Shown here: positions 10,601 through 39,245 of the stretch, piece after piece
Layout of the letters: each line of letters starts with the position of its first letter
Numbering within the stretch: position 1 is the stretch's first letter
Assembly (NCBI RefSeq): GCF_910592395.1
Contig: NC_088310.1
Location: 18,297,501 to 18,361,500 of the forward strand
Length of the DNA: 64,000 bases
Reading direction: 5' to 3'
Origin: Lineus longissimus
Lineage: Eukaryota > Nemertea > Pilidiophora > Heteronemertea > Lineidae
Translations under genes and position numbers: made by a program
Notes under the pieces: model-generated
Told to the model about the DNA's origin: nothing
Databases searched by the model: none
Seen by the model: the letters and a program-made list of their open reading frames with translations, nothing else

Positions 10601-13042
10601 CGCTACTGACGCTGTTCCTCTCGAGGAGAACTTTGTCAAAGCAATCCATAAAGTCCATGACTTGCTGGATCTACCGCGAAAAACTGTCAGTGCTCCTGAA
10701 ACTAATGAGTTTCTCAACCTACCAGCTTATGAATACCGGTACCCGACTCTCCGAGAATCTGTGGCATCGACCCCTAACCACATAGGCACTCAGGTGGTGT
10801 CCCATCCTGAAGAGACAGCCAACAGTCGAGCGCCATTGTCCCGTTTCCCGCACAACCGCTCGGGTACTCGAGCTCGACTCACCCGTTCCAATACAAGAGC
10901 TAACAGACATGCTATTGGCTCCACTGCAGTGAATGGTGAACAAGAAGGAGACACTTCAGTCGCTGATCTCTCGGAAAAGACAACTTCCATCTCAGTGAGT
11001 TTGTCAGTAGCACCTACTCTTATGGACCCAGAGGCTGACACTCAACCATCAGGACGACGGCAGCCAGAGACAGCAGACTCGTCAAGGTATCGAGACACAG
11101 GGATAGCAGTTAAAATGGGAGATAGAGAAGGTCAGTTTCAGCAGATGACCAAATCTGGCGGAGGTCCGAATGAAGAGAGCGGCACTCCTGCGGTAGTTCG
11201 CCCGCCTGTCGCATCGCATTGCCTGGGGCTTCCGAGCGCCAATAATGTCGTAGAAACTGCTTCTGGGACTGGTAGTCTCGGAGGACAGTTTGAATTGCCG
11301 CATGAAACTGCTTCTCTTGCTGATGATTTGGGTGTTGATGGTTCATCTATGGATACAGGTTACAGTGGATCAACGCATGGCTTGATGAATCCAAAGACAG
11401 AGGATGCGTCCATCGCGAGTCACGAACAAGGGGTCGAAATTGACGAGTACGTTGAGAGTGTCCAACGGATGAACCTCGAAGACAAACCCGCACAACTTCC
11501 GAAGACGTTCCTCGTGCCTGATCCAGTGAACCCAATAAGCTCATTCGCAGACTGCACCCTCCCCGCATTGCCTGGACAGACAATGAATCCTTCCGCTAAT
11601 ATCGAGATGACTGATTTCCGCCAAGGTCCCGCCTTGAAGACAGGCGAGATACCGTTGGGTGTTCATCGTAAGTATCTACTTGGCACATCATGATTCCAAC
11701 TTCTGAGTATTTCCTCAATGGCATAAGTGAGTACATGTACGTGTATCGACAAAGGTTATGACGTCAATTTTGTCACTGAAGACGGTATCACCAATAATTC
11801 TGACTGAAACAAACATACACAGGTACTGCGACGGGTTAACTAACCGCTGAGACATACTTTTTAGGCTATTGAACTGAAATCTCGTCCTTTTTTCCTTTTA
11901 TATAGAAGAAATTCAGAGTTGTTTCATTAAAAGAAAGGTTTTAAAATGGAAATTATTTCCATACTGACGATTGACTGAAATTCAAATTCAAGTGTCGTGC
12001 ACTGAATATTAACCTATGTGTATAAAACAGATAGAAAGAAAACTTCTGTCTGTGTTGTTGTCCATGTGCCAATGGCAGTCTGGTGGACGCCACCGGGGCA
12101 TCTCTAGTCCTCGGTGTCCGCCTCCAGGGACCGACCGTAATTTCAAGAATCTACACATGTATTTCCCAGGTGCCCGGGTGTTTAAATTCGACGCTGCCCA
12201 CAATACATGGACTTGCTCGACAACCCTGGTCTACGTCGATGAGAAGCTGAACGTTCGCCCCAAGGGAGCCATGCGTTACGTCATCAAACTTCAGTATCTT
12301 AATCAGGATGAACCAAAAGCAAGGTAACAAATTAAAGGGTACATCCGGACACAGAAATAGACAATCTATCTACTCTGAGGTCGAATTGCAGCAAGCGCTT
12401 GAAAATATCTCTCTGATACGGTGTCCATTTTTAGATGCGTCTTTTAACTCACCAGATGTTCTTTGTCTTGATAGATACGTTGGCAAGAGCTACCAAGATG
12501 CCGAGCGGAGGAAGCTGCATTTGTACTACCAGGATGTCGTCTGCCAGATGACGGCGCGCCATTTCGTGGCCCTGTTCAACCAGGCGCTCAAGGACGACAA
12601 TCAGGCCTGGAAGATCCAGTTTGTCCCTGCAGCGCACATCCAACTTTTGTCGGATGACCACAAGGACATAGTTTATTTTTTTAATGTTGAGCCGTTCGTG
12701 GAGGGGTCACTAGGTTTTGAGAAAGTGACCGACAACTCCATCTATGTCAACCGTAAATTAACTAAGGAACTTGTGGACGTGTCCCTAGCCTTTATGCACT
12801 TTACATGGGAGAAGTCGGAAGGCAAGATACTGGTGACAGACCTTCAGGGTTGGTTGCCCTGGGACCAAAAAGGCACCATCATTTTCACAGACCCTGCCAT
12901 TAATTCAGAACCTCTGAAGACCGTATTTGTTACTGGCAACCGTGGTAAATTGGGTGTTGACGAATTTTGGCGTGAGCAACATCCGACATGTAACGATATA
13001 TGCTACTCGCTAGGAATAAAGAGACCTCAATTTGCCTCTTAA
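7671..13042 (+). CDS. ALPK1: ALPK1-like alpha-kinase, copy a (7 coding exons)
   Basis: Model: 7671-7916, 8411-8669, 9124-9210, 9624-9883, 10329-11667, 12128-12323, 12475-13042; phases fit and the total of 2955 nt gives 984 aa (human 1244). The first exon starts at 7652 after TTTCAG. The GTTGTT donor at 7917 is the weakest junction but aligns best with human. Residues 20-300 match the helical ADP-heptose-binding domain: WPFVFEEWQF (41-50), IAPQVYIRKAR (133-143), LPKPDQKG (217-224), keeping F43, Q49, R140, R143, D221 and K223 at the positions of human F61, Q67, R150, R153, D231 and K233. A Ser/Thr/Pro-rich linker (~400-730) holds DPEADT at 517-522. The alpha-kinase domain (~740-980) shows RYVGKSY, VEPFVEG (867), TDLQGW (917), TDPAIN (934) and zinc ligands H965, C968, C972, probably with H904. 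It should phosphorylate TIFA-type adaptors in the cytosol. Confidence 0.93.
8090..8240. repeat. Dispersed short repeat, copy in ALPK1a intron 1
   Basis: Contains CCGGACGCAGAGGACAGACC...GGGATGACGAAATGGACTGC. The same module recurs at 8690-8765 (intron 2) and 13048-13130 (3'UTR), and at mirrored sites in ALPK1b, with the consensus CACTCCGGACGCAGTGGACCGGCCTCGT then GGATGACGAAATGG after a short gap. It looks like a non-autonomous interspersed repeat of about 90-130 bp. Confidence 0.6.
8688..8765. repeat. Dispersed short repeat, copy in ALPK1a intron 2
   Basis: Begins ACTTACACTCCGGACGCAGT and ends near CCCTGGGGTCTATC. It is related to 8090-8240 and 13048-13130. Confidence 0.65.
9262..9425. repeat. 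Three-unit tandem repeat in ALPK1a intron 3
   Basis: Three imperfect units of about 50-60 bp, each holding CCTACC(C/T)GGTCC.TGGC and ending GATACTGGCCAGAG (ends near 9314, 9371 and 9421). The mirrored array is at 24480-24625. Confidence 0.75.
11025..11042 (+). other. DPEADT motif in the ALPK1a linker (T522)
   Basis: Encodes D-P-E-A-D-T, then Q-P-S. It is the same six-residue string as in TIFA-b (residues 11-16). It lies in a low-complexity linker between the sensor and kinase domains, where autophosphorylation is sterically plausible. Function is inferred. Confidence 0.65.
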
Positions 13043-13047
13043 TTCGT

Positions 13048-13130
13048 ACACTCCAGACGCAGTGGACGGGCCTCGTCCCTCATCCTAAGGATATCCAATT
13101 AGGATAATGCAATGGACTGTCCTGGGAGAG
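13048..13130. repeat. Dispersed short repeat, copy in ALPK1a 3'UTR
   Basis: Contains ACACTCCAGACGCAGTGGAC and CAATGGACTGTCCTGGGAG; related to the copies in introns 1 and 2, mirrored at about 20530-20612. Confidence 0.6.
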
Positions 13131-13617
13131 TCTACTGAATTCCTAGCTGAACAAAACGCTATTTTACCAGAAATGTAATATATCTATTTAGTGAAGGGTG
13201 TGTGATTCAGGAATTCATAACACTTTAAGAATTGAAACACTCTGAAGAGTCTATACACCTTGGAACTGCCAACTTTGGTAAAGGTGGCTGCGGCGTTTTT
13301 TTGCGCGGTCACTAACTTGTAAGCTCAGTCCGTGACGCGATTGACATCGAAATGCAATATCTATCACATCCTGTCAGTCAACATGACATCAATCGATAGG
13401 ACTGGAAGGCAGAGGGTATGGTTTGGATATAAATTTATTGCTTGGAATTTTGAAGACCTCTATTTCGGCTTGGGTTCTGAGTTTACATGCTACTGCAAGT
13501 CTTCAAAATACTATTAAATTGAAGAATATTGCAAGCCAGCATTTGACATTGAGCATTTGTAAGGTTAAAATAAGCAAAGTTTGTATTTCTGAGTTGAAAC
13601 TTTCCAGAATACATGTA

Positions 13618-13623
13618 AATAAA
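13618..13623 (+). other. Polyadenylation signal of ALPK1a
   Basis: AATAAA 576 bases after the stop codon, followed by T/GT-rich sequence (GTAATGTTACTATTTGTTC). Conserved at the mirrored position 20041-20046. Confidence 0.6.
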
Positions 13624-14364
13624 GTTCAGGCATGCAAGTGTAATGTTACTATTTGTTCTTAGCAGATTAGTGGCTCGTGACTGTGCTAATTTCTAAACAT
13701 TGTGTTTGTTTGAAGTGTTAACAAACAATGAAAGGGAAATATTCTGGGAGTGCTGAAACTGCCGGGGAATGGATTTCCTCAAACATGCACAAATCATGTA
13801 TGGTGGTATTCGTGTTGTCAGTTATTACACAAGATGAAGTGTTCTTATGTAATTGTCGCATGGTTTTGACTTCGATGAAAAAGGACAAGCACTTTTGTGC
13901 AAACCGTTCCAGACTTTGTAGCTTGAACTGCAGACTAATTTATTTCGTGAGGGACTGGTAGCTTATCCTGTGTAGCAGGGCTTTCCAACCACTACAAGCA
14001 GCCTGTAAGGGGCGCCAGACTGATCCTGGGGGTACAAAGAAACTGCCAGGGGTAAAGGACTGCTGGTCCAAGTTGCATTTAACCACCGTGCACCTGCCTA
14101 ATGAGTATGACGGGTCTATTTTGGCCTTAAAGTCTCCCTTTGTATAGTACCCCCAGGTATATGGCACGGCTTAACCCGCCGGCCATGAGGGAATTCCTTA
14201 ATGGCCCAGTGGTTGGCGCGTTGGCCCCAGAGTGGAAGTTAAGCAAAAGTTGGTTATATTTGTCGCATGTCGAAGGGTCGTCACAACATTGGAGACCTTC
14301 TGCAACTGTCGCGGGTTGAGGAAAAGTTGGAAGGCCCTGCAATAGAATCATTGGGGTAGCTAAT
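13624..14364. other. ALPK1a downstream flank; 75-codon ORF on minus not supported as a gene
   Basis: Palindrome-arm sequence with no recognised gene. A 75-codon minus-strand frame (13940-14167) is nearly identical to the mirrored frame 19497-19724 on +, but both lie in recently duplicated DNA, so conservation is not evidence of selection. The protein resembles nothing I know. Confidence 0.5.
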
Positions 14365-17300
14365 CCCAGAACCTCCAGCAGGTCATTGGTACCGAGGACA
14401 GTACTTGTCCAATGAAGGCAAATCACAAGCAGGTCAATGGAGACGAGGACAGTACTTTTCCAATGAAGAGACATCCTCCGTGGATCAGTCTCTGTTCACG
14501 AATGCACACCCAGAACCTCCAGCAGGTCTTTGGGGCCGAGGACAGTAATTGTAGAATAAAGGCACATCACCAGTAGGTTATTGGAGACGAGGACAGTACT
14601 TTTCCTATGACGGCACATCCTCCGTGGATCAGTATCTGTTCACTGAATTCACACCCAGGACCTCCAGCAGGTCACTGGAGCCGAGGACAGTAATTGTAGA
14701 ATGAAGGCACATCACCAGTAGGTCATTGAGGCCGAGGCCAGTACTTGTCCAATGAATGCATATCACCAATAGAAGAGTATCTGTCAATTGAATGCACACC
14801 CAGAACCTCCAGCAGGTCATTGGGGCCGAGGACAGTAATTGTCGAATGAAGGCACATACCTGTCTACTGATTAAAATGGACACCAAGAACCTCGAGCAAG
14901 TCGTTGGAGCCGAGGACAGTACTTGTCCAATATGAAGGTATATCCCCTGTCCGATGATGGCACACCCAGGACATCCAGTAGGTTATTGGGGTCGAGGACA
15001 GTACTTGTCCAATGAGGTCACATCCCCCGTGGATCAGTCTCTGTCCAGGAATGCACACCCAGAACCTCCAGCATGTCATTGGGGCCGAGGACAGTAATTG
15101 TCGAATGAAAGCACATCACCAGCAGGTTATTGGAGACGAGGACAGCACTTTCCAATAAAGAGACATCCTCCGTCGATCAGTATCTGTTCACCGAATGCAA
15201 ACCTAGGACCTCCAGCAGGTCATTGGAACCGAGGACAGTACTTGTCTAATGAAGGCACATATCTGTCTACTGATAACAATGGACACCAAGAACATCAAGC
15301 AAGTTGTTGGAGCCAAGGACAGTACCTGGCCAATATGAAGGCATATCCCCTGTCCGATGATGGCACACCCAGGACATCCAGTAGGTTATTGGAGACGAGG
15401 ACAGCACTTTCCAATAAAGAGACATCCTCCGTCGATCAGTATCTGTTCACTGAATGCACACCCAGGACCTCCAGCAGGTCATTTGAGCCGAGGACAGTAC
15501 TTGTCGAATGAAGGCACATATCTGTCCATTGATTCCACTAGACACCCCGAACCTCCAGTATGTTGTTGGAGCTGAGGACAGTACTTGTCCAATGAAGGCA
15601 TATCTCCTGTCCGATGATGGCACACCCAGGACATCCAGTAGGTTATTGGGGCCGAGGACAGTACCTGTCCAATGAGGTCACACCTCCAGTGGATAAGTCT
15701 CCGCCCTCGAATGCATGCCCAGAACAAACATCACCAGTAGATTATTGGAGACGAGGACAGTACTTTTCCAATAAAGAGACTTCCCGTGGATCAGTTTATG
15801 TCCACGAATGCACACCCAGAACCTCCAGCAGGTCATTGGGGCCGAGGACAGTAATTGTCCAATGAAGGCACCTCACCAGCAGGTTATTGGAGACGAGGAC
15901 AGTACTTTTCCAATGAAGGCATATTACCAGTGGAAGAGTATCTGACAAATGAATGCACACCAAGTATCTCCAGCAGGTTGTTGGGGCCGAGGACAATACT
16001 GGTCTAATAATGTCACATCTCCAGAGGAAAAGTCTGTGTCCACGAGTGCACACCCATTACCACAAACAGGTCATTGGAACTGAGGATAGTGATTGTCCAG
16101 TGAAGGCACATCACCAGCAGGTTATTGGAGACGAGGACAGTACTTTTCCAATGAAGAGGCATCCCCCGTGTATCAGTCTCTGTCCACGAATGCGCACCGA
16201 GTACCTCCAGCAGGTCATTGTGGCCGAGGACAGTACTTTTCCAGTGAAGGCATATCACAAGTGGAAGAGTATCTGTCAAATGAATGCACACCCAGGACCT
16301 CCAGCAGGTTGTTGGGGCCGAGGACAGTACTTGTCTAATGAGGTCACATCTCCTGACGAAAAGTCTGTGTCCATGATTGCCTACCCAGAAACACCAATAG
16401 GTGAATGGGGCCGAGGACAGTAATTGTCAAATGAAGGCACATCACCAGCAGGTCATTGGAGACGAGGACAGTACTTTTCCAATGAAGAGACATCCTCCGT
16501 GGGTCAGTCTCTGTTCAATGAATGCATACCCAGAACCTCCAGCAGGTCATTGGGGCCGAGGACAGTTATTGTCCACTGAAGGCACATCAACAACAGGTTA
16601 TTAGAGACGAGGACACTACTTGTCCAATGAAGAGATATCCCCGTGGATGAGTATCTCTTCACTGAATGCACAACCAGAACCTCCAGCAGGTCATTGGAGC
16701 CGAGGCCAGTACTTGTCCAATAAAGGTATATCACCAATGGAACATTATCTTTCAAATGAATGCACACCAAGGACGTCCAGTAGGTTATTGGAGACGAGGA
16801 CAGTCCTTTTCCAAGGAAGAGACATCCTCCGTGGATCAGTATCTCTTCACTGAATGCACAACCAGAACCTTCAACAGGTCATTGGAGCCGAGGCCAGTAC
16901 TTGTCCAATGAAGGCATATCAACAATGGAACAGTGTCTTTCAAATGAATGCACACCAAGGACGTCCAGTAGGTTATTGGAGACGAGGACAGTCCTTTTCC
17001 AAGGAAGAGACATCCTCCGTGGATCAGTATCTGTTCACTGAATGCACACCCAGAACCTCCAGCAGGTCATTTGAGGCGAGGACAGTACTTGTCCAATGAA
17101 GGCACATCGCCAGCAGGTTATTGGAGACGAAGACAGTAATTTTCCAATGAAGAGACATCCCCGTGGATCAGTGTCTGCCCACGAATGCATACCCAGAACC
17201 TCCAGCAGGTCATTAGGGTAGAGGACAGTAAATGTCCAATGAAGGTACATCACCAGCAGGTTATTGGAGACGAGGACAGTACTTGACCAATGAAGAGACA

Positions 17301-18490
17301 TTCCTCGTGGATCAGTCTTGTCCACGAATGCACACCCAGGACCTCCAGCAGGTCATTTGAGACGAGGACAGTAATTGTCCAATGAAGGCATATCACCAGT
17401 GGAACAGTATCTGTCAAATGAATGCACACCCAGAACCTCCAGCAGGTCATTGGGGCCGAGGACAGTAATTTTTCAATGAAGGCACATGACCAGCAGGTTA
17501 TTGGAGACGAGGACAGTACTTTTCTGATGAAGAGACATCCTCCGTGGGTCAGTCTCTGTCCAGGGATGCACACCCAGAACCTCAAGTAGGTCATTGGGGC
17601 CGAGGACAGTAAGTGTAGAATAAAGGCACATCACCAGTAGGTTATTGGAGACGAGGACAGTACTTTTGCAATGAAGAGACATCCTCTGTCGATCAGTATC
17701 TGTTCACTGATTGCACACCCAGGATATCCAGTAGGTTATTGGGGCCGAGGACAGTACTTGTCCAACGAGGTCACATCTCGAGTGGAGAAGTCTCCGCCAA
17801 CGAATGCATACCCAGAACCTCCAGCAGGTCATTTGGGGCCGAGGACAGTAATTGTCCAATGAAGGCACATCACCAGCATGTTATTTGAGACGACGACAGT
17901 ACTTTTCTGATGAAGAGACATCCCCCGTGGTTTATTCTCTGTCCACGAATGCACACCCAGTACCTCCAGCAGGACATTGGGGCCGAGGACAGTAATTGTC
18001 CACTGAAGGCACATCAACAACAGGTTATTAGAGACGAGGACACTATTTGACCAGTGAAGAGATATCCCCATGGATCAGTATCTCTTCACTGAATGCACAC
18101 CCAGGACCTTCAGCAGGTCATTGGAGCCGAGGCCAGTACTTGTCCAATGAAGGCATATCACCAATGCAACAGTATCTTTCAAATGAATGCACACCAAGGA
18201 CGTCCAGTAGGTTATTGGAGACGAGGACAGTCCTTTTCCAAGGAAGAGACATCCTCCGTGGATCAGTATCTCTTCACTGAATGCACAACCAGGACCTTCA
18301 GCAGGTCATTGGAGCCAAGGCCAGTACTTGTCAAATGAAGGCACATATCTGTCCACTGAATCCAATGGACACCCAGAATCTCAAGCATGTTGTTAGAGCT
18401 GGGGACAGTACTTGTCCAATGAAGGCATATCTTCTGTTCGATGATTGCACACCAAGGACATCCAGTAAGTTAATGGGGGTTGTGGACAAT
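14365..18490 (+). repeat. Minisatellite array 1, in the palindrome centre
   Basis: Built from two alternating modules: A, about 51 bp (CAGCAGGTCATTGGGGCCGA...GGCACATCAC), and B, about 93 bp (CAGCAGGTTATTGGAGACGA...ACCCAGAACCTC), plus variants with CAGTGGAACAGTATCTG. Every module holds the core GAGGACAGTA(A/C)T(T)GTCCAATGA, itself a short inverted repeat (GGACA...TGTCC). Module lengths are multiples of three, which creates long spurious open frames in several frames. The array keeps one orientation and so breaks the symmetry of the flanking palindrome. Confidence 0.92.
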
Positions 18491-19299
18491 ACATGTACTT
18501 GATCTGATAAAGGCATGCATCACAACTTTGCATGATTTTCAATTCGAGTCTCATGAAGATGGATGTTTCACGGACTTTTTTTCAGTTCACACCAATATGC
18601 ATGTAGCTGTTGACTAATTAACTCACCAAATTGGTGGCAAGCTATTTAGCTTTCAATTCGCATCAACTGAAAGTATATCCGACATAAGATCGCAGACAGC
18701 ACCTAGGTCATTAAACATTTCTCGCCAATGCTCAGGCAGGTTTAAAAACCTCACCATGTTATAACGTAACGAACACCGAGACGCACTTCCTCATATACAT
18801 TCTAATGTGTATTTTTCTCCGATTTAAATATACAAATCAAGACAATTTAAAGATGGTAACAAAGCCTTGTGTAGCCCACCTTGCCTTGTGTTCATACACA
18901 TGCCTCCAAGAATTAATAAAGACAAGACTTTATGAATTCTTGATGCCACTGACCCAATCAAATGACACGTACAATAATCCTCTACGGACTGGTCACTTCA
19001 AACCAGCTCAACTCCTGACACGTTTCCTGGGACAGGGAGTATGATGACCCCCTCATTAGTATGATGAATCCCCTAATTACATCTAACACTTTCTGTAGCA
19101 TCTGATGTCAAGCAATTTGAAGCTCACCGCGGCACTACTCAATTTTGCTTCGAAACGTTGATGAAGACTTCTCTGAAGCTTTTCTTAGACTGTTGGCCAA
19201 TGTTGAAAGTGAGCTTGTGTCAGTAATTCTGACGGTGATATCAAGGACAAAGCCCACATTTTGGTTCATGAAAGTCCAATAATGATATGATGTAAAATC
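18491..19299. other. Non-repetitive stretch in the palindrome centre, no gene seen
   Basis: AT-rich sequence between the minisatellite and the right arm, with no match in the left arm. A 79-codon frame (18805-19044) has no recognisable domain and is probably chance. Confidence 0.5.
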
Positions 19300-20040
19300 A
19301 GCTACCCCAATGATTCTATTGCAGCTGGGCCTTCCAACTTTTCCTCAACCCGGGACAGTTGCAGAAGGTCTCCAATGTTGTGACGACCCTTCGACATGCG
19401 ACAAATATAACCAACTTTTGCTTAACTTCCACTCTGGGGCCAACGCGCCAACCACTGGGCCATAAAGGAATTCCCTCATGGCCGGCGGGTTAAGCCGTGC
19501 CATATACCTGGGGGTACTATACAAAGGGAGACTTTAAGGCCAAAATAGACCCGTCATACTCATTAGCCAGGTGCACGGTGGTTAAGTGCAACTTGGACCA
19601 TCAGTCATGCACCCCTGGCAGTTTCTTTGTACCCCCAGGATCAGCCTGGTGCCCCTTACAGGCTGCTTGTAGTAGTTGGAAAGCCCTGCTACACAGGATA
19701 AGCTACCAGTCCCTCACGAAATAAATTAGTCTGCAGTTCAAGCTACAAAGTCTGGAACGGTTTGCACAAAAGTGCTTGTACTTTTTCATCGAAGTCAAAA
19801 CCATGCGACAATTACATAAGAACACTTCATCTTGTGTAATAACTGACAACAAGAATACCACCATACATGATTTGTGCATGTTTGAGGAAACCCATTCCCC
19901 GGCAGTTTCAGCACTCCCAGAATATTTCCCTTTCATTGTTTGTTAACACTTCAAACAAACACAATGTTTAGAAATTAGCACAGTCACGAGCCACTAATCT
20001 GCTAAGAACAAATAGTAACATTACACTTGCATGACTGAAC

Positions 20041-20046
20041 TTTATT
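20041..20046 (-). other. Polyadenylation signal of ALPK1b
   Basis: TTTATT on +, AATAAA on -, 573 bases downstream of the ALPK1b stop, matching 13618-13623 in the other arm. Confidence 0.6.
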
Positions 20047-20618
20047 TACATGTATTCTGGAAAGTTTCAACTCAGAAATACAAACTTTGCTTATTTTAAC
20101 CTTACAAATGAAGGTCAAATGCTGGCTCGCAATATTCTTCAATTTAATAGTATTTTGAAGACTTGCAGTAGCATGTAAACTCAGAACCCAAGCCGAAATA
20201 GAGGTCTTCAAAATTCCAAGCAATAAATTTATATCCAAACCATACCCTCTGCCTTCCAGTCCTATCGATTGATGTCATGTTGACTGACAGGATGTGATAG
20301 ATATTGCATTTCGATGTCAATCGCGTCACGGACTGAGCTTACAAGTCAGTGACCGCGCAAAAAAACGCCCCAGCCACCTTTACCAAAGTTGGCAGTTCCA
20401 AGGTGTATAGACTCTTCAGAGTGTTTCACTTCTTAAAGTGTTATGAATTCATGAATCACACACCCTTCACTAAATAGATATATTACATTTCTGGTAAAAT
20501 AGCGTTTTGTTCAGCTAGGAATTCAGTAGACTCTCCCAGGACAGTCCATTGCATTATCCTAATTGGATGTCCTTAGGATGAGGGACGAGGCCCGTCCACT
20601 GCGTCTGGAGTGTAAGAA

Positions 20619-23600
20619 TTAAGAGCCAAATTGAGGTCTCTCTATTCCTAGCGAGTAGCATATATCGTTACATGTTGGATGTTGATGACTCCAAAAGGCG
20701 TCAACACCCTCTTTACCAAGGTTGCCAGTAACAAATGCGGTCTTCAGAGGTTCTGAATTAATGGCCGGGTCTGTGAAAATGATGGTGCCTTTTTGGTCCC
20801 GGGGAAACCAGCCCTGAAGATCTGTCACCAGTATCCTGCCTTCGGACTTCTCCAATGTAAAGTGCATAAAGGCTAGGGACACGTCCACAAGTTTCTTAGT
20901 TAATCTTGGGTTGACATACGTGAAGTTGTTGGTCACTTTGACAAAATCTGATCCCTCCACGAACGGCTCAACATTAAACAAATAAACTATGTCCTTGTGG
21001 TCATCTGACAAAAGTTGGATGTGCGCTACAGGGACAAACTGGATCTTCCAGGCCTGATTGTCGTCCTTGAGCGCCTGGTTGAACAGGGCCACGAAATGGC
21101 GCGCTGTCATCTGGCAGACGACATCCTGGTAGTACAAATGCAGCTTTTTCCACTTGTCATCTCGGTAGCTCTTGCCAACGTATCTATCAAGACAAAGAAC
21201 ATCTGGTGAGGTAAAAGACGCATCTAAAAATGGACACCGTATCAGAGAGATATTTCAAGCGCTTGCTGCAATTCGGCCTCAGAGTAGATACAATGTAGAT
21301 TGTCTATTTCTGTGTCCGGATGTACCCTTTAATTTGTTACCTTGCTTTTGGTTCATCCTGATTAAGATACTGAAGTTTGATGACGTCACGCATGGCTCCC
21401 TTGCGACGAACGTCCAGCTCCTCATCGACGTAGACCAGGGTTGTCGAGCAAGTCCATGTATTGTGGGCAGCGTCGAATTTAAACACCCGGGCACCTGGGA
21501 AATACATGTGTAGATTCTTGAAATTACGGCCGGTCCCTGGAGGCGGACACCGAGGACTAGAGATGCCCCGGCGGCGTCCACCAGACTGCCAGTTGCACAT
21601 GGACAACAACATAGACAGCAGTTTTCTTTCTATCTGGTTACACACAAGTTAATATTCAGTGCACGAGACTTGAATTTGAATTTCAGTCAATCGTCAGTAT
21701 GGAAATAATTTCCATTTTAAACCTTTCTTTTAATGAAACAACTCTGAATTTCTTCTATATAAAAGGAAAAAAGGACGAGATTACAGTTCAATAGCCTAAA
21801 AAATATATCTCAGCGGTCAGTTAACATCGCAGTACCTGTGTATGTTTGTTTCAGTCAGAATTATTGGTGATGGCGTCTATAGTGACAAAATTGACGTCAT
21901 AACCTTTGCCGATACACGTACATGTACTTACTTATGCCATTGAGGAAATACTCAGAAATTGGAATCATGAGGTGCCAAGTAGATACTTACGATGAACACC
22001 CAACGGTATCTCGCCTGTCTTCAAGGCGTGACCTTGGCAGGAATCAGTCATCTCGATATTAGGATTCATTGTCTGTCCAGGCAATGCAGAAAGGGTGCAG
22101 TCTACGAAAGAGCTTATTGGGTTCACTGGATCAGGCACGAGGAACGTCTTTGGGAGTTGTGAGGGTTTGTCTTCGAGGTACATCGGTTGAACACTCTCAA
22201 CGTACTCGTCAATTTCGACCCCTTGTTCCTGACTCGCGATGGACGCATCTTCTGTCTTTGGATTCATCAAGCCATGCGTTGATCCACTGTAACCTGTATC
22301 CACAGATGAAGCATAAACACCAAAAGCATCAGCAAGAGTAGCAGCTTCATGCGGCAATTCAAACTGTCCTCCGAGACTACCAGTCCCAAAAGCAGTTTCT
22401 ACGACATTAATGGCCCTCGGAAGCCCCAGGCAATGCGATGCGACAGGCGGGTGAACTACCGCAGGAGTGCCGCTCTCTTCATTCCGACCTCCGTAAGATT
22501 TGGTCATCTGCTGAAACTGACCTTCTCTATCTCCCACTTTAACTGCTATCCCTGTGTCTCGTCCTGATGGTTGAGTGTCTGCCTCTGGGTCCATAAGAGA
22601 AGGTGCTACTGACAAACTCACTGAGATGGAAGTTGTCTTTTCCGAGAGATCAGCGACTGAAGTGTCTCCTTCTTGTTCACCATTCCCTGCAGTGGAGCCA
22701 ATAGCATGTCTGTTAGCTCTTGTGTTGAAACGGGTGAGTCGAGCTCGAGTACCCGAGCGGTTGTGCTCGGTCACCACAGGAGTAGTAGCCGCTGGTTGTC
22801 GTTCGGATGGCTTGGTGTCAGCCTCTGGATCCGTAAGTGCAGGTGCCAAGCTCCAAGAGATTGAACGAACACGTGTCGTTGCAGATTCTTCCATGGCCCT
22901 TTCTTTTCGATTGTCTTTCCTTGGAGTGGCAGCACCAGTAGCATGTCTCGTAACCCGGGTGCGGAAACGGGACAATGGCGCTCGACTGTTGGCTGTGTCC
23001 TCAGGATGGGACACCACCTGAGTGCCTATGTGGTTAGGGGTCGATGCCACAGATTCTCGGAGAGTCGGGTACCGGTATTCATAAGCTGGTAGGTTGAGAA
23101 ACTCATTAGTTTCAGGAGCACTGACAGTTTTTCGCGGTAGTTCCAGCAAGTCATGGACTTTATGGATTGCTTTGACAAAGTTCTCCTCGAGAGGAACAGC
23201 GTCAGTAGCGGCGCAGTGATGATCATAAATGACGATGCAGGTCCTTTCGATCTCAATAGCTTTCGAGATTGCTCCTGGGGTAGCCATCAGACAGTAGGCT
23301 ATGAAACATTGGTACACAGCGCATGTGAATTCATTCAGCTGCTCTCGACTCGTGAGTTTATTCAATGATAGGTGTCCCTTGAGACTCATCTTGAGGTCGT
23401 TGAGAGCCTGAGTGATCAGCTTAAGCCGGTCTTCCTGAGGCAGTGTGATCACGAACATGAGCAACACTTCGCCAGCCCTTCGCTGGAAGAGAAATGGAAT
23501 GAAATCAGTCTCAGAAAATGTGAGGGGCTAAAGCAATGAAAGGAAGTGAGGAAAAAACTTGTGACCAGTCGCCAATTTGGGGAGTTTCGCACTCACACCC

Positions 23601-26189
23601 ACAGAATCGACTGTGCCCCAGATACCGAAGTCGTTTCCGCCATAACCCGATTTGCGAGTTGCCCTAGATTTAGTTGCGTCGCATAAAGATTTAAGAGTAA
23701 TACCTAGACTGTTTAGCACTACTCGCCCACTGGGATGTGCCCAAAGATGTGGTAGGCCTGCTGCCATAATTGTTCACACCAGAATGCAAAACTGTTCGAA
23801 TCACCAATTGATGACTATACTAGCTAGTATAGTAGTATCAGAGTATTTCAATTAATTCATTTAAAAAAAAAAAAGCAGTCTTCGTGATTGTGACTATGTC
23901 TTTTCAAGGCCGCCCGCTTACCGTATGCCTCGCGAAGAAAAATGGGTCGAATCTAGTCAGCCAGGCAGCCTGTCTGTTCGCAGCATAGGCCTCTTCAAGG
24001 GGATGGTTATGGTGGCACGCATACTTCAGCAGCATCTGCTTGAACTCTGAATGAGAGATGTTTCTTAGGGCATCTGAGAGGATGCCCAACGAGGAGCTTA
24101 TTCCTTTATGGTCGGGCTTGGGTAGGCTGTTGTATCTCCGGATAGACTCGAGGACAAGGTCTGCAGCTTCCACCCAAAGACCTATATACAAGAACATGAG
24201 GGACAGAAAAAAAAACAAGCACTCACTTGATATCAATAAACGAAGTGTTTTTGTGTAATCTAGTCGATTTCCGCAATCCGATTCGAAGAAAGAGCGCTCA
24301 GCTTAGCCATCTGTATATACTTGAACACATGTACTTGACTTTAAACTTGAGGATACTGTTGCAGTAGCTTGCACGTTCACACTTTTGAAAAGGCCTGCTG
24401 TCATTTCCAGTTCTGTTCAAAATTACATTAGAACAGCTTATTCTCAGGTGCAAATTCGCAGCTAAGTCACACCTCTGGCCAGTATCCCGCAAAAGAAGCC
24501 ACTGACCAGGTAGGTCTTCGTATCTCTGGCCAGTATCCCGCCAGATAGGCCATGGACCGGGTAGGACTTCGATCAAATCTCTGGCCAGTTTATCGCCAGC
24601 GAGAAGCCATGGACCGGGTAGGACTTTGGTCCTCAGCCAAAATAATGATAGTATAAGTAATAGCTTACCGAGATTATGTCTGATGACTCCTTTCAACTGG
24701 ACGCATGTTGCGTGAACAAGGTTGTACTGGCTCTCGTCCTTATAGCGCCATTGCTCTGGAAGGACAAATTGAGTACAATGACCATCTTGACTCTTAGGTT
24801 TTGGATCCACACCGCCAACCCGGACTCCGTGACACAAAAGGGAAGGGAGTTCAAAGATGTAGTACCTCTGATGGTTCAGAATGACATGGACCTACAGTCC
24901 AATACGGAGTTCTCCTGAAGCAGATCTTCCAGTTTTTTTGGGTGCACCATAGCTCCTTACTTTATACAAAGGTTAGATAGTACAAAACCAAGATGAAACG
25001 TCTGCAGATATAACAGGCATATCAGAGAATACGCAAGAGACCTGGATGTGCCCTGATGAAAGGTGGTCTCCAACAACGCCATCTGTGGACGCATAAGCTG
25101 GAAAGTAGAGTTTTGATAGACCCTGGGGCATTCCATTTCATCATCCTATTCATGAAGTACGAGGCCGGTCCACTGCGTCCGGAGTGTAAGTTTTAAAGGT
25201 GTGACCAACCTTTATGTCCCTTCTCTGAGAGAATGAAATCGAGCGTCTTGTCCGCATCTTGGAGAGAGCCCCCATTTTTGAGGAACCTTGCCTTCCTTAG
25301 GTAGACCTGTGGCGCGATGGCCGTGGTGGGCGCCTGCTGTTTGATGTCGTCCACCTTGTCGAGGATGTATTTGGAGTTACCATGCAAATACATCAACCGA
25401 TCAAGCAGGAGGACGACTGACGCGGCCGTCTCGAAGGCCTTCTCTGAACAGGCATGTTCAAGACATTCCTGGAAACAAAAAACAACAACATTAGAAATAT
25501 TATTTTCAATCACGCCATAGTACGGCGTCCAAATCAAACTTGATAGACACGTTATTTCAGCAACAATTTCGATACATGTACATGTACCGGGACATATCAC
25601 TTGTTGCAGTTAAAAAGTTCGAATTTCCTGTGTCACCTAGACTCCATTGCAGTCCATTTCGTCATCCCTATCGTTTTTCCTCGTTGGGCGACAGGGCGCG
25701 CGTCCACTGCGTCCGGGGTATGGGAGTCACCGGGGTTCAAAGAAGTTGACCCGCCTGACTGCTGCATGCCGATTTCGGCGTTCTTAGTCAGCCTTGTCTT
25801 GGTGAAGGACTAAAAGAAACACCGATGGGCATCGAATAATGGTGACGCCAATGAGATTCGTACTGCCTCTCTAATCAAGACTGCATTCTGCAATTCATGC
25901 TAGATTTGTACAACTCGGCGATCGAGGGGGCATGCGAAACAACCTTCAGAACATCCTCCTCCGTCATATCAGGATACACTGCATTCTTAGACTGGATGAG
26001 ATCATTGATGTTGACGATCTCCTTCTTGTTGTCCGGCTCGAACTGCCACTCCTCGAAGACGAATGGCCAAGATTGGTCCTCAGCCTCGCGAACTAACTGC
26101 TGGAGTTTCGGCGACAGCGCGCTGAACCATTCCTTCAATGTCTTGTGTTGCGAGGAGGAATTCTTTAGTTGCACCCCAACTCCTTTCAT
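20619..26189 (-). CDS. ALPK1: ALPK1-like alpha-kinase, copy b (7 coding exons)
   Basis: Minus-strand exons: 26189-25944, 25468-25210, 24755-24669, 24181-23922, 23482-21991, 21536-21341, 21183-20619, total 3105 nt, 1034 aa. Every junction mirrors copy a and all phases fit; the first exon begins at 26208 after TTTCAG. Sensor-domain landmarks are the same (WPFVFEEWQF; IAPQVYLRKAR; LPKPDHKG, keeping D and K). The long linker exon is 51 codons longer than in copy a: a block from RTRVTRHATGAA to GTRARL is an extra internal repeat of the following block, so there are two DPEADT motifs (T507 and T587). The kinase exon is intact, with YVGKSYR, VEPFVEG, TDLQGWF, TDPAINS and zinc ligands in QHPTCNDIC. 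Upstream lies a copy of the TIFA-b promoter region, so its control may differ from copy a. Very likely functional. Confidence 0.93.
22574..22591 (-). other. DPEADT motif 2 in the ALPK1b linker (T587)
   Basis: Encodes D-P-E-A-D-T-Q-P-S, the equivalent of the single ALPK1a motif. Confidence 0.65.
22814..22831 (-). other. DPEADT motif 1 in the ALPK1b linker (T507)
   Basis: Encodes D-P-E-A-D-T-K-P-S within the extra 51-codon block, 80 residues before the second motif. The flanks diverge more than the motif does. Confidence 0.65.
24480..24625. repeat. Three-unit tandem repeat in ALPK1b intron 3
   Basis: Mirror of 9262-9425; units contain CTCTGGCCAGTATCCCGC. The unit near 24580-24600 differs (CCAGTTTATCGCCAGCGAG), so the array has diverged between arms. 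Confidence 0.7.
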
Positions 26190-30400: not shown

Positions 30401-31079
30401 GTAATTGGTAATTGGTAATTTATTTGGCCAACATAATAATTAAAGTACATGTATGAGATTTTTAACAGTGGAAATAACGGCCAGGGACACAGCCAAGATC
30501 AACAATTAGATCGCTTACGGCTGTGCCCCTGCTGAAATAAAGTAGATTTAAGAGAAAGGACAAACAAACACAAAAAGTACCTCTGGGTAAGAACCTGCAT
30601 GGAACAGCTAATTACACAAAATGGTTAGTATAAAATTTACTCGAATTGTAATGTTTTTGATATCAAAACTCAGGAATGAGCACATACATAACAGTGTGGA
30701 ATTACACAGCGAGAACTGTATAATCCCAATAAATAATTTTTTAAATAGGTACTGAAGCCATGAAGACTGTGAGTGTGAATTTTGTCCGAGACCAAGGAAG
30801 GGAGGGAATTGAAGATGGCGACAATACTATAAAGTGGTATTTTTTGGTTAAAATTAAGTCTGCATCGTGAAGTTATCAATTTCTGCCCGTTTCTAGTATT
30901 GTGAGGATGTACTTAGTCATTTGTTTTGATAGTGTTATGCATGAAGTAGCCCGGAAGGTCATTATTGAAAAATTTGTATAGGAATTTCATTTGTAGAAGT
31001 GAGTGTAAGTCTGTTAATTTCAATACTTTTAAAGTCTTGAAGAGAGGTTCAGTATGGGCAATAAGCTTTCTGTTTGTGA

Positions 31080-32150
31080 TCACTCGAATAGCCTTTTTTG
31101 AAGTTTAAGGGTAGAGCCATGTTCGTAGCCCCAGGACAGTAGCTGATAATTTAGATGTGGAGTAATGAGGGCGTGGTACACAGTAACTAAGGTTTTTTGA
31201 TTAACATAGGATTTGAGGTGTTTCAAAATTCCAATTGCTCGTGATACCTTTAAGGCTATCTTACGTGTGTGATGGACCCAACTGAGGTATTTATGGAGTG
31301 TGAGGCCAAGAAAATCAAATTGTTCCACGCGATCAATCGGGATATCGTGGATTTTTGGAGTGATGTTGATGACTTTTGAGTTAGACCGTTCGAATATGAT
31401 ATATTTAGTTTTGGGGAGGTTTAGTGACAGTTTATTAGCTTTTAGCCAATCTGCCAATTTTGATAATTCTGTGTTAATATTTACATTCATTTCGTTCAGA
31501 TTTAGTTCAGACCCAAGGTTGTTTAATTCGCTCTCTAGAGTAGTGTCATCAGCGAACATGACGCTGTTAAAACTATCACTGGCTTTGTTGAGATCGTTAA
31601 TATATATGATAAATAATAGAGGACCCAAAATAGACCCCTGGGGGACCCCTGTTTTGATTTTTGCACGAGTGGATTCTGTACCGCAGTAGTCAACAAATTG
31701 TTCCCGATTGAAAAGATAGTTACTCATAAGTGAAAGAGCTTTTGAATTTAGTCCATAATGTTTCAATTTACGCAGTAGTATGTTGTGATCTAGAGTGTCG
31801 AAAGCCTTGCTAAGGTCCATAAAAATAGAAAGAGATTTATTGCCAGCATCAAGTGTTTTTACAATTCTATCAATAGGTTCAGCTGCGGCCAGGTCGGTAG
31901 AGTGTTTTGGTCTGAAACCGTATTGACTGGAGTATAAAAGGTTATTTTCGGCAAAGTAGTTTCTTAATTGATCGTGGATAATTCTTTCGTAAATCTTAGA
32001 TATTGCGGGCAACAGGGAAATGGGGCGGTAGTTGTCTGGGAGGGCATTGTCGCCTTTTTTGTATAATGGGAGAACACGTGCTAATTTAAGACGATCAGGG
32101 AAAACACCAATGGACATTGAATGATTTATCATAACTGTCAGTGGTTTCAC
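31080..32150 (-). CDS. LINE 2 ORF2, reverse transcriptase part
   Basis: 356 intact codons. RT blocks in order: NYRPISLLPAISKIYE, YGFRPKHSTD, FMDLSKAFDTLDHNILL, TGVPQGSILGPLLFIIYIND and FADDTT (catalytic ADD), then the thumb region with LGLTLHKYLSW. The style is that of CR1/L2/Jockey-group elements. It starts in frame with upstream RT sequence that is broken around 32150-32800, so the full ORF2 is not intact. Confidence 0.85.
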   Translation of the reverse strand: MKPLTVMINHSMSIGVFPDRLKLARVLPLYKKGDNALPDNYRPISLLPAISKIYERIIHDQLRNYFAENNLLYSSQYGFRPKHSTDLAAAEPIDRIVKTLDAGNKSLSIFMDLSKAFDTLDHNILLRKLKHYGLNSKALSLMSNYLFNREQFVDYCGTESTRAKIKTGVPQGSILGPLLFIIYINDLNKASDSFNSVMFADDTTLESELNNLGSELNLNEMNVNINTELSKLADWLKANKLSLNLPKTKYIIFERSNSKVINITPKIHDIPIDRVEQFDFLGLTLHKYLSWVHHTRKIALKVSRAIGILKHLKSYVNQKTLVTVYHALITPHLNYQLLSWGYEHGSTLKLQKRLFE

Positions 32151-32199
32151 TATTTCATTTTTACATGCTTTAAATAACTTGGTTGAGATCCCATCCTAC

Positions 32200-33014
32200 C
32201 CACAACTTGTTTTTGATTGTATATGATCTATTGTTTTGGCAACTGTGTTCTCGGTAATGTTTCCGAAACTAAAGGTGTAAGGTTGTGGTTGCCCCAAGTA
32301 GTCTGTAAAGTGAGAAGTTGAATCCCTGATGGCGGCAGATAAGTTTGGGCCCATATTTGACATGAAAATATTGAATTCATTTGCTATTACGGTTTTACAG
32401 AGGTTTGAACTTCGTTAATTTGAAACGATTCTGGAACTTTGGTACTAGACCTCGATGATTTATTTATAAGGGTATTGATGGTTGACCAAGTTTTACGGGT
32501 ATCATTTTTATTCATTTCTAGAACATTAGTATAATAGCTTTTTTTGTGCTATTGATAAGCCGTCTTAGGACTTTGTTATAGTTTCGTAGTTAGGCGGAGT
32601 GGCTTTTAGTTTCTTGTAAAGATTGTCTCGTGTTTTAATCGAGTTTATAAGTGCATTTGTGATCCATGGGGAATTTTTATGCTTATATTTGTTGAATTTA
32701 GCTGTGATCAGGGGAAAGTTATCGTCCCTTGCCGTACAGAGTAAGTCATGAAATTTATTGAAATTTGTATTAACGTCACAGTGTCAGAGTTGCTAATTCC
32801 CTTGTTATTTGTAATTTGAAGTTCTCAGTTGCCGCTTCCGGTATTTGACTATTTGTTTATGTTTTTGTTGATTTGAGTGAATTTTACTTATTCCAATGAA
32901 ATAGGCTTGGTGATCTGATATTCGGTTGGTGAGGATGCCAGTGACAGTTTTAGAGATGAGGGGGGAGAACCTGTAGAAGAAGTTATCTGGTGTGCCCGGC
33001 CAGGGGTCGAACAC
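32200..33014 (-). pseudogene. LINE 2 ORF2, middle part (broken)
   Basis: Fragments in several frames link endonuclease to RT. 33014-32805 contains ILTNRISDHQAYFIGIS, the ISDH motif at the endonuclease C-terminus. The rest has scattered stops. Confidence 0.55.
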
Positions 33015-33015
33015 A

Positions 33016-33520
33016 GAAGTTGATAACGATGCCTTTCAGTATAGTGGTTTTATTTGAAACCTGTAATAAATGATAAAGAACATTTAGCACCAACGAAATA
33101 CATAAAGATAAACATACAACTTGTTTATACACACAAATGTTTGCTAACTAGAACCAATGATTTATGAACTATTTTTGGCCTCTTATTGTCGTGGTATTTT
33201 CTCTCAATAAAAACCAACAATAATTGTCTATCAACACTGAAATCAAACCGTAATATAATCAACGCCTAATCAATATGGAGATACATTGGCATCTGTTAGT
33301 CCACGTAACTAATATTCAACACCAAAATAATCCATGATAAAAACTTTTCAGAACGTCCGACTTGCTATAAAACTTGGCGCAAAGTGAACCTGAAGAAATC
33401 ACGCGCGTATCGCGAGAGCTCGTCAACCAATGACCAAACCGGAATGAACAGAAAGGCGCGAAACGAATCGGGCGCGAAATTCAAATATATAAATGTCAAT
33501 AAACCACGCTGTTTCAGCGA
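33016..33520. other. Unidentified ~0.5-kb insertion in the LINE 2 endonuclease
   Basis: AT-rich sequence separating the endonuclease text ending TLIDNV (~33530) from the ISDH-containing part (<33014). The ends TTGATAACGATG and (reverse) TTGATAATGTTT are weakly similar inverted ends, so a small DNA transposon is possible. No coding content is seen. Confidence 0.4.
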
Positions 33521-34096
33521 AACATTATCAATTAGGGTTTTACTGTGTGTGGTTATTCTAGTTGGGTGTGTAATAGTTGGATAAACTGAATGCGTAAAAA
33601 TAGTTTCGATAAAGTCGGAGAATGCAGGTTTGTTCTTATGTTTCAGTAGATCAATATTAGTGTCACCAACAATTACAAGCTCGCCATGCGTATTTTGAAA
33701 TTGTGTAAGTGTTTGGGAAAATTCATCGATGAAGGAGTAATAGTCTTCGTTACGATCACGTGGTGGTCGATAGAGATTGCCGAGAGTTAGCCGTTTGTTA
33801 GCGCAGATTATTTCTGTAAACTGGTTTTCCCAAGTTTTAAATCGAGGAGTCTGAATTAAATTAAACGTGAGGCCTTCTTTTATATATATTGCTAGTCCAC
33901 CGTGTGCTGAGCACGTTCGGCTTTGTTGGATGAGGTTATAACCAGGAATTTGGAAAAGGCTACCTTGATGATTATCGGAAACCCAATTTTCTTGAAAACA
34001 CAGTGCACTGAAGTGGAAACCCTCTTTGTGTAGGAGGTCGAGATATAATATAATGTCATTGTATTTTGCATTGATGCTCTGACAGTTCATGCTCAA
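33365..34096 (-). pseudogene. LINE 2 ORF2, APE endonuclease part
   Basis: Reads MSMNCQSIN, FQENWVSD (catalytic Glu region), GGLAIYIKEG, NLYRPPRDRNEDY and VIVGDTNIDLL (catalytic D-x-N). The frame runs into unrelated sequence after TLIDNV near 33530. Confidence 0.75.
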
Positions 34097-34689
34097 GATA
34101 AAAAAGTTTTCTGAGTATTTTTTACCGATCTCTATAAGCGTTTTATCATCAGTGTATGGGGAATCAAGTAGAAAAGTTAATGGTTCTTGCCCGTCCAGAG
34201 TGGCATCGTTGTGGACATCTAGCGTATCAAGTAATGAAATGTAGTTCGTGCCTGTTACATGTTAGGGTGTTTGTGAAATGTTCGTGTTGGCTATAGAATA
34301 CCAGCGACAAGGAAAAAAATATATAACAGAAAAAATTGAAGTGTTAGAACCTTTCTGGTGTAAAGAAAAAACGGTGACGGGTTTGTCACAAGGAGAGAAC
34401 AATGGTGACATCAAATCAAACCCAGCCAATGGGCCAGAAAGAATAAGAAAAAAATATTTGGACAAATAAGTACGGTACAATGAAAACAAAAAAAGAAGTG
34501 TTGGAAAGAGCAACTGTCCTGCAATTGCCATTGAGTGATTCGGGGTGAAAAAGTGCATGGATGGGGGAGTACAGTATAATTGCAATTTCGCTCTTAAATA
34601 TAAGTTATATAACAATGCTATAAATTAAATACCCATTATTCACAATTTCGTAGAATATATATATAAGTAGTCATGATAACAATGATATA

Positions 34690-38032: not shown

Positions 38033-38038
38033 TTTATT
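38033..38038 (-). other. Polyadenylation signal of TIFA-b
   Basis: AATAAA on minus, about 310 bases past the TIFA-b stop. The same signal lies at 6302-6307 in the other arm. Confidence 0.55.
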
Positions 38039-38348
38039 CCATTTTTACATGTTTTAACAGAGAGCAAAAGCATATCCTTAAACAATTTTGATACATTCAT
38101 AGAGTGAATCACCTCAACAGTTCTTCTAATGCGTCTTATGAGACTCTGGATTAAATCTTTGGATTGCGAAGCAAATGAACGACACTTTAACACTCCTACG
38201 ACGCGTCGTTCTCTACAATAAACTCAGCAAGGCGCCGTCGCGACTCTCCACTGAGCTGATGGAACCTTATGAGCGATATCATCAAAACATGACAGTCGCG
38301 ACGGATTTGATAAACTTTACAGTACACTTCATGACAGAGAGACAATGC

Positions 38349-39245
38349 TCATTGTTGGAAGGCATCATCATCATGACACCTTCTGGGTGTCACTGTTGAC
38401 ACATTGCGTGAGTCGGAACACTGCACTGGCGCATTCAGCTGTGAACCTGGTGTATTCATTGCGACGTCTAAGTTCGAGTCAGATTTAAATGTTACCTCGA
38501 ATATGTAACTTCTCGATCTATTTGACGTCTCCACGCACAACAAAAAGTCCATGCTTTGCCCTTCACCGTACTTAGAATCAAGATCACGAATACGCAATCG
38601 TGATACCTGGGGAAGTCGTCTGCTTTCATCCAGTCCCAAAGTTTCTTCATTTAGGAAAACCTTCTTAAGCCTGCTCAGGTTTTTAAAAACGAAGTACCAC
38701 TGGTCCGGTTTGTGGACAAGTGTCAATGAAAATTGTCTTTGTGAAATCGTCGCGTCATTAAGTTTCACCTGGACACCCCCTGAAGGTGCAAGTCTGCCAA
38801 ACACCATTACCCCGTCACCTATCACTTTATCCTTCGGGTAGAATTCTTTCCATGGTTTTGGCGTGAGAGGCGAGTAGCTGAAAACCACCTTGTGCACGTC
38901 CGTCCCGCCACCCAGTTGAACGTATGTTTCAGCCTCCGGATTCTCTTCGACGACAATACCACTATCCGCCACGGAATTGTCCTTTTCTAATCCACTGCTG
39001 GGAACACCTAACTTAACCGAGACATCTCTCGAAGAAAAATCATTTCGCGGTTTTGCCCTTTTTTCGTAGTCACATCCCGCATTATCCTTATTCGCTACAT
39101 CTACATTAACTTTCGTGTCCGCATCGGGGTCTACTTCCATGATATTATGTCTCCCAGCACCTTCAACTGATACGGCTCGCCGGGGTTCCTCTAATTTTGT
39201 GTCGGCCTCTGGGTCCTCCTCTTCAAAGTCACGCCCCGAATCCAT
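38349..39245 (-). CDS. TIFA: TIFA-like FHA adaptor, copy b
   Basis: 298 residues from ATG at 39245 (human TIFA 184). I chose this start, not the ATG at 39329, because TTTTATCGTTTTATAG ending near 39271 is a good 3' splice site and because MDSGRDFEEEDPEADT parallels the human N-terminus, where the ALPK1 target Thr9 sits in an acidic EDADTEE context. Three such motifs occur: DPEADT (T16), DPDADT (T44) and NPEAET (T107). The FHA domain spans ~115-255: FGR with R151, ISQRQFSL (167-174), K188-N189 in FVFKNLS, and closing strands DFLLCVE and YIFEVTF. The C-terminus ends DDDAFQQ. No P-x-E TRAF6 motif exists anywhere in the protein, unlike human TIFA. Expected role: cytosolic adaptor that oligomerises through pThr-FHA contacts after ALPK1 activation. 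The upstream promoter is at ~40.3k. Confidence 0.88.
   Translation of the reverse strand: MDSGRDFEEEDPEADTKLEEPRRAVSVEGAGRHNIMEVDPDADTKVNVDVANKDNAGCDYEKRAKPRNDFSSRDVSVKLGVPSSGLEKDNSVADSGIVVEENPEAETYVQLGGGTDVHKVVFSYSPLTPKPWKEFYPKDKVIGDGVMVFGRLAPSGGVQVKLNDATISQRQFSLTLVHKPDQWYFVFKNLSRLKKVFLNEETLGLDESRRLPQVSRLRIRDLDSKYGEGQSMDFLLCVETSNRSRSYIFEVTFKSDSNLDVAMNTPGSQLNAPVQCSDSRNVSTVTPRRCHDDDAFQQ
38925..38942 (-). other. NPEAET motif in TIFA-b (T107)
   Basis: Third, most divergent copy of the acidic Thr motif, just before the FHA domain. Confidence 0.45.
39114..39131 (-). other. DPDADT motif in TIFA-b (T44)
   Basis: Second motif copy, identical in six residues to that of TIFA-a (15-32). Confidence 0.6.
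39198..39215 (-). other. DPEADT motif in TIFA-b (T16)
   Basis: First motif copy, closest to the position of human Thr9, identical in six residues to the ALPK1 linker motifs. Confidence 0.65.

Follow-up and report, generated by a model that had tools for sequence, protein, structure and literature searches.

The window analysed here, 64 kb of DNA from the nemertean Lineus longissimus, carries two ALPK1 genes and two TIFA-like genes (ALPK1a, ALPK1b, TIFA-a and TIFA-b) in an inverted-duplicate cluster. The short motif D-P-[E/D]-A-[D/E]-T was detected in the N-terminal tails of the TIFA-like proteins and in the linker of the kinases. Our data support that the linker sites are non-random and that they recur in relaxed form in mammalian ALPK1 linkers. 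Tentatively, we read the motif as an ALPK1 target site, the linker copies of which could be autophosphorylated and then transiently dock the FHA domain of TIFA. Published work is cited by PMC number.

A TIFA-type threonine motif in the Lineus cluster

As the initial annotation had it, human TIFA Thr9 lies in the sequence EDADTEE and becomes an FHA ligand once phosphorylated by ALPK1, which agrees with PMC9704527 and PMC7083832. All seven positions that it gave for the motif in the window translate accordingly:

15..32, + strand: DPDADT in TIFA-a (translation and six-frame scan)
11025..11042, + strand: DPEADT in ALPK1a, residues 517-522 (Thr522)
22814..22831, - strand: first DPEADT in ALPK1b, residues 502-507 (Thr507); it lies in repeat unit 1, which ALPK1a lacks
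22574..22591, - strand: second DPEADT in ALPK1b, residues 582-587 (Thr587), in repeat unit 2, shared with ALPK1a
39198..39215, - strand: DPEADT in TIFA-b, residues 11-16 (Thr16), aligned with human TIFA Thr9
39114..39131, - strand: DPDADT in TIFA-b, residues 39-44 (Thr44)
38925..38942, - strand: variant NPEAET in TIFA-b, residues 102-107 (Thr107)

Searched in all six frames for [DN]P[ED]A[DE]T, the 64 kb yielded these seven sites and none elsewhere, so that 7/7 matches fall in kinase linkers or TIFA tails, and first-order Markov simulations of the window gave 0 matches in each of 100 runs. When one mismatch was allowed with the Thr kept, open reading frames (ORFs) of at least 60 residues (40,353 residues) contained a single extra match, NPGAET, which lies antisense to ALPK1b at 22952-22969. 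A third Lineus copy of the kinase, the protein P0002, shows TEPEADT and MDPEADT in the corresponding positions. The motif is present three times in TIFA-b, twice each in ALPK1b and P0002 and once in ALPK1a.

Shuffling and Markov controls were run on eight linkers (three from Lineus and five of the mammalian set described below). Against the shuffled-linker background proposed in the initial annotation, the Lineus linker motif is commoner than in composition-matched sequences: the exact counts of the three Lineus linkers were reached in 0-5 of 20,000 shuffles and in 0-21 of 20,000 Markov controls. For the single site of ALPK1a the figures are 5/20,000 and 13/20,000, and for the two sites of ALPK1b 0/20,000 in both controls. 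In the 117-residue tail of TIFA-b three sites are observed, with at most one in any of 20,000 shuffles. The internal repeat units of ALPK1b and P0002 are diverged, and PEADT is the invariant run in all five aligned units. That ALPK1a and ALPK1b agree was not counted as a sign of selection; it is weak evidence of constraint because these non-independent duplicates, about 95% identical, evolve at a ratio of nonsynonymous to synonymous substitution rates (dN/dS) near 1, with 0.97 in the linker.

Relaxed forms of the motif in mammalian ALPK1 linkers

For comparison, the best 120 of 648 proteins by score were aligned. All named rows are mammalian and nine are without a name; no row is named human, so gorilla stands in for it, and there are no fish, bird or amphibian rows. 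The rows are related and include several isoforms per species, and counts among them are not independent. Motifs of the human linker were known before the mammalian sequences were examined, and the one-mismatch rule (Thr kept) was fixed after the mammalian matches had been seen.

The initial annotation knew of no such motif in the human linker, but the nearest relatives in the set carry it in relaxed form, a departure that strengthens its case. The mouse has DPEGET and DPDAST, within SVDPEGETAEST and TVDPDASTVDEE, and the gorilla has DPEGET and NPDAST, within WVDPEGETAEST and INPDASTVDEE. At least one D-P-[E/D]-x-x-T is found in the linker of 115/120 rows and at least two in 77/120, with none in 5/120, and outside the linker the 120 rows contain no match. 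The one-mismatch rule gives a similar picture, with at least one site in 115 of the 120 linkers, at least two in 74 and none in five, and 0 matches in the 80,170 residues outside. For the eight linkers, the expected number of one-mismatch matches per linker is 0.006-0.014 by shuffling and 0.002-0.047 by the Markov model; the two mouse sites were reached in 0/20,000 shuffles and 10/20,000 Markov controls.

The Thr is kept in 102/120 rows at site 1 and in 116/120 at site 2, and both are kept in 98. That no row lacks both was discarded as a sign of significance, about 0.6 such rows being expected from the counts. Two residues after the Thr, an acidic residue stands in 118/119 rows at site 1 and in 102/120 at site 2, as in human TIFA. 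By conservation, the 8-mers at the two motifs rank 34 and 40 of 523 linker windows, and the Thr of sites 1 and 2 rank 9th and 7th of the 41 linker Thr. Because of these ranks, the two mammalian sites are conserved islands but not the sole ones.

Two further observations were made in the mammalian linkers. In the mouse lemur protein P0030, site 2 is expanded in tandem (VDPDAAT, VDPDAST, VDPDASI). At mouse T893-T894, T894 is kept in 120/120 rows and followed by E[E/D]; its commonest context, EDCTTT-EE, recalls human TIFA EDADTEE, which makes it a third candidate site, found post hoc.

Identity of the kinases

By both domains the Lineus kinases are ALPK1 at the sequence level, and activation by ADP-heptose and phosphorylation of TIFA are predicted for them. 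As in vertebrate ALPK1, an N-terminal ligand domain is followed by a linker and an alpha-kinase domain. With the N-terminal 353 residues, only ALPK1 chains are matched in the PDB at E <= 0.01 (human 5z2c, E 1.5e-41). The kinase domain matches Pfam PF02816 with E 2.4e-31 in ALPK1a and 1.2e-33 in ALPK1b, and a PDB search with this domain gave ALPK1 at 7.3e-31 and the next family at 2.1e-09. R150 and D231, which we take to be ligand-pocket residues, are kept together with R153 and K233 in ALPK1a and P0002 (gorilla numbering), and K1067 is kept as well. R153, K233 and T237 are named as ligand-pocket residues in PMC10723048. A difference from the vertebrate protein is seen at the position of human Thr237, which is mutated in ROSAH syndrome: the Lineus residue 227 is Ala in ALPK1a and Ser in P0002 and ALPK1b.

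The ALPK1 linker is predicted to be disordered. In an AlphaFold2 model, built from an alignment of 31 of the 120 mammalian rows with P0001 (the NCBI protein of ALPK1a) and P0002, the predicted local distance difference test score (pLDDT) is below 50 over residues 402-723, with block means mostly of 20-27, and this coil includes the motif. No helix of four or strand of three residues occurs between residues 397 and 727. The N-terminal part is helical and the kinase part is of low confidence, so the model informs on architecture only.

A homologue search with the whole Lineus ALPK1 found three Lineus proteins, scoring being confined to the 7996 candidates with the most words in common, and a search with the kinase region found the same three and a distant alpha-kinase, P0004; neither returned an invertebrate relative outside Lineus. 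In P0003, a predicted Lineus protein of 1527 residues, a Pao-type retrotransposon polyprotein is fused to an ALPK1 kinase domain that shares 98% identity with ALPK1a. The fusion may represent an insertion into a further ALPK1 copy or an artefact of the gene model.

Identity of the TIFA-like genes

From sequence alone, homology of the two genes to TIFA is marginal, since a TIFA profile run against the 385 ORFs of the window placed a chance ORF first and TIFA-a and TIFA-b second and third. This top match, a 72-residue ORF at 30611-30826 on the - strand, was set aside, its alignment looking like chance. With human TIFA alone as query (phmmer), TIFA-a and TIFA-b ranked first and second among the same ORFs. 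Pairwise blastp to human and mouse TIFA gave E values of 7e-5 to 0.002 with composition correction off, and a profile comparison by hhalign scored 28.8 against at most 18.4 in 40 shuffles, at a probability of only 18.6%. The Pfam FHA match of TIFA-a (18.8 bits, E 0.0022) lies just under the cut-off of 20.7; TIFA-b has no Pfam match at E <= 1, and a PDB sequence search with the Lineus TIFA sequences returned no match. The fold prediction for TIFA-b, made from two sequences, was too poor for use (mean pLDDT 33.9), and the fold search made with it, with 0 PDB matches at E <= 0.001, was uninformative.

Features in common with vertebrate TIFA are a putative TIFA-like FHA domain and the acidic, Thr-bearing N-terminal tail, which aligns with human Thr9 and has its motif core in common with human EDADTEE. 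The phosphothreonine-binding residues R51, K88 and N89 are kept in Lineus TIFA and correspond by alignment to R151, K188 and N189 of TIFA-b. Independent support for a TIFA-like identity comes from the position beside ALPK1; ALPK1 and TIFA are also genomic neighbours in human, mouse, chicken, Xenopus and coelacanth (PMC5336308). TIFA-b differs from vertebrate TIFA in its three motifs. A TRAF6-binding motif, P-x-E-x-x-(aromatic/acidic), was sought in TIFA-a and TIFA-b and not found, and we therefore call the genes TIFA-like and not full TIFA. Residues 273-278 of TIFA-b, PVQCSD, fit the minor TRAF2-binding pattern P-x-Q-x-x-D given in PMC9704527; TIFA-a has no match to it.

Proposed autophosphorylation and docking, and alternative readings

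In the mechanism that we tentatively prefer, ligand-bound ALPK1 would phosphorylate the N-terminal site of TIFA, as shown by others for human Thr9, and would also phosphorylate the D-P-[E/D]-A-[D/E]-T copies that its disordered linker contains. Once phosphorylated, these linker threonines would offer transient docking points to the TIFA FHA domain. Docking would feed TIFA dimers to the kinase and start TIFA oligomers, while ALPK1 itself would not be built into the filament. If true, this gives the kinase a way to find its adaptor.

The linker sites are natural candidates for autophosphorylation because they resemble the known ALPK1 substrate site in TIFA, and we consider it probable that they are used as such. 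That the kinase autophosphorylates its own linker had been proposed in the initial annotation, and the first half of this claim stands: human ALPK1 autophosphorylates upon ADP-heptose, which requires kinase activity (PMC10113258), and self-phosphorylation is also described in PMC9704527. PMC10113258, of 2023, leaves the residues unmapped and lists them as work needed. The TIFA-type motifs are good candidates for these sites, and with them specific residues are named, T791 and T850 in gorilla numbering, with T908 in TTTEEG as a further candidate.

Docking is attractive because the same kind of motif, when phosphorylated, is the FHA ligand in TIFA; once autophosphorylated, the linker sites would probably bind the FHA domain. 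TIFA is an intrinsic dimer and oligomerises via contacts of phosphorylated Thr9 with the FHA domain (PMC7083832). According to PMC9704527, TIFA is phosphorylated on Ser9 no less than on Thr9, yet an absence of FHA binding was inferred for the Ser9 form. In the head-to-tail TIFA oligomer the Thr motif core is the same, [E/D]-A-D-T, whereas the ligand proposed here lies on the kinase and its docking is putative.

Kinases of the Chk2/Rad53 type make their own FHA ligand. They share with the system described here that a kinase is tied to an FHA domain via phosphothreonine sites in a disordered segment; in Lineus, however, the FHA domain belongs to a separate adaptor whose gene lies close by, and the binding is proposed.

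Several observations weigh against autophosphorylation followed by docking. FHA domains often read the +3 position after the phosphothreonine, but conservation of the motif lies mainly N-terminal of the Thr and +3 varies, being S in Lineus ALPK1 and E, N or Q in the Lineus TIFA sequences; this pattern is more like that of a kinase consensus than that of an FHA ligand. Five of the 120 mammalian rows, koala among them, have no site within one mismatch. The gorilla linker has only one site under the rule, the second starting with N, a count that 124 of 20,000 shuffles and 199 of 20,000 Markov controls reach. At site 1, Ile is found in aardvark and in all 14 rows named Bos, Bubalus, Ovis or Moschus. 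Six other linker Thr are conserved above both sites, and one more above site 1. No phosphosite data were found for the linker Thr. ALPK1 and TIFA were not colocalised in co-transfected cells according to PMC10865109, and in PMC9876800 the kinase profile was determined in vitro with linker-free human ALPK1, its N-terminal and kinase parts being supplied as two fragments.

A possible alternative, which we also hold with reserve, is that the linker sites are auto-substrates regulating ALPK1 itself, without involvement of the TIFA FHA domain. Unphosphorylated sites could occupy the active site in the manner of a pseudosubstrate, and phosphorylation would bring release or feedback. The mammalian conservation is equally consistent with this explanation, as are the kinase-consensus-like conservation N-terminal to the Thr, the reported autophosphorylation of human ALPK1 and the missing colocalisation with TIFA. 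It leaves unexplained, however, why motif copies are multiplied in TIFA-b as well as in the kinase. Since the linker-free kinase works in vitro, regulation by the linker is not essential there.

Less likely, the sites belong to a different writer or reader, or have arisen by convergence in acidic low-complexity sequence. The T-V-D-E at mammalian site 2 fits the CK2 consensus, and PEAD/T fits the caspase x-E-x-D cleavage consensus. Acidic linkers favour such strings, Markov expectations are mostly above those from plain shuffles, and the one-mismatch rule was set with the mammalian matches in view. CK2 does not fit all sites, because those of Lineus ALPK1 have no acid at +3. Chance convergence has to contend with the low recovery of the two mouse sites in the controls (10/20,000 and 0/20,000) and with the identical exact motif in Lineus ALPK1 and the adjoining TIFA-like gene.

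The initial annotation suggested a stable multivalent filament of kinase and adaptor, built by bonds between linker phosphothreonines and FHA domains. Several motifs per molecule on ALPK1b and TIFA-b would suit such a structure, as would the dimeric state and FHA-mediated oligomers of TIFA (PMC7083832). We regard it as improbable: besides the lack of colocalisation, the authors of PMC10865109 concluded that ALPK1 does not drive TIFA condensation by multivalent contacts, and human N-terminal and kinase fragments without the linker form a complex (PMC6718413). Because of the missing colocalisation and the kinase profile of linker-free fragments, transient docking or plain autoregulation is favoured over a filament. 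Functionless copying of the motif between TIFA and ALPK1 by micro-duplication or gene conversion within the cluster is very improbable; at the DNA level TIFA-b motif 1 agrees with the ALPK1 linker exons in 17/18 bases at best, an agreement that stops at the motif edges, other copies use different codons, and the relaxed motif is present in mammalian linkers.

Evolutionary distribution

ALPK1 homologues were described as vertebrate-only, with an origin after deuterostomes lost heptose synthesis (PMC11573728), and according to PMC12457700 invertebrate lineages have neither TIFA nor ALPK1. As predicted genes, those of Lineus, a protostome, contradict the vertebrate-only view for ALPK1 and, less firmly, for TIFA. 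A nemertean ALPK1 in which the arginines and the lysine of the ligand pocket are kept, with a TIFA-like gene next to it, runs counter to the account in PMC11573728. In a search of open-access papers we found no report of these linker sites, nor of invertebrate ALPK1 or TIFA. The Lineus system further differs from the vertebrate pathway in that the exact TIFA motif is repeated in the kinase linker. A wider scenario, in which ALPK1-TIFA would be an ancient bilaterian pathway and the self-phosphorylated linker a docking and nucleation platform for TIFA, kept in relaxed form in mammals, is in our view possible but less likely than not. Mutations in ALPK1, an immune kinase that senses a bacterial sugar, cause ROSAH syndrome and spiradenoma (PMC10723048).

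Gene arrangement and neighbouring elements

The genes and duplicated arms of the window are as follows:

3..632, + strand: TIFA-a, 3' part of the coding sequence (ORF call), 209 residues, 5' end beyond the window edge; one motif in an acidic N-tail, followed by an FHA-type domain (Pfam and alignment to human TIFA)
7671..13042, + strand: ALPK1a, 970 residues, spliced model identical to NCBI protein P0001 (alpha-protein kinase 1-like, Lineus longissimus); seven exons, 7671-7916, 8411-8669, 9124-9210, 9624-9883, 10329-11667, 12170-12323 and 12475-13042
10329..11667, + strand: exon 5 of ALPK1a, containing the disordered linker (residues 400-731 as delimited for the linker tests)
20619..26189, - strand: ALPK1b, 1020 residues, spliced model without internal stop; seven exons, 26189-25944, 25468-25210, 24755-24669, 24181-23922, 23482-21991, 21494-21341 and 21183-20619
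38349..39245, - strand: TIFA-b, 298 residues; long N-tail with three motifs, FHA-type domain and short C-tail
7598..14364, + strand: left arm of the ALPK1 inverted duplication, three blocks pairing with 19297-26262 at about 95-97% identity
19297..26262, - strand: right arm of the ALPK1 inverted duplication

The TIFA-like genes flank the ALPK1 pair, the two kinases of which are inverted relative to each other, with TIFA-a at the left window edge and TIFA-b on the far side. Like the ALPK1 arms, TIFA-a with the sequence next to it and TIFA-b form an inverted pair, which suggests a head-to-head duplication of a TIFA-ALPK1 cassette. On the TIFA-a side the duplication is interrupted over 5.4 kb (657-6014), within which lies a minus-strand reverse-transcriptase ORF (1618-1947).

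ORFs of a LINE-type element and of Pao-type retrotransposons are located at 31080-34261 (-), 41043-43064 (+), 44483-51024 (+) and 53585-55441 (+). The LINE-type element comprises reverse transcriptase and endonuclease, and the Pao-type ORFs carry DUF1759 and Peptidase_A17. Diverged tandem arrays occupy 14365-18349, with similar sequence at about 28.7-29.9, 36.2-37.8 and 59.2-63.9 kb; the arrays are spread across the window and have repeat lengths of about 51, 94 and 144 bases as well as longer ones.

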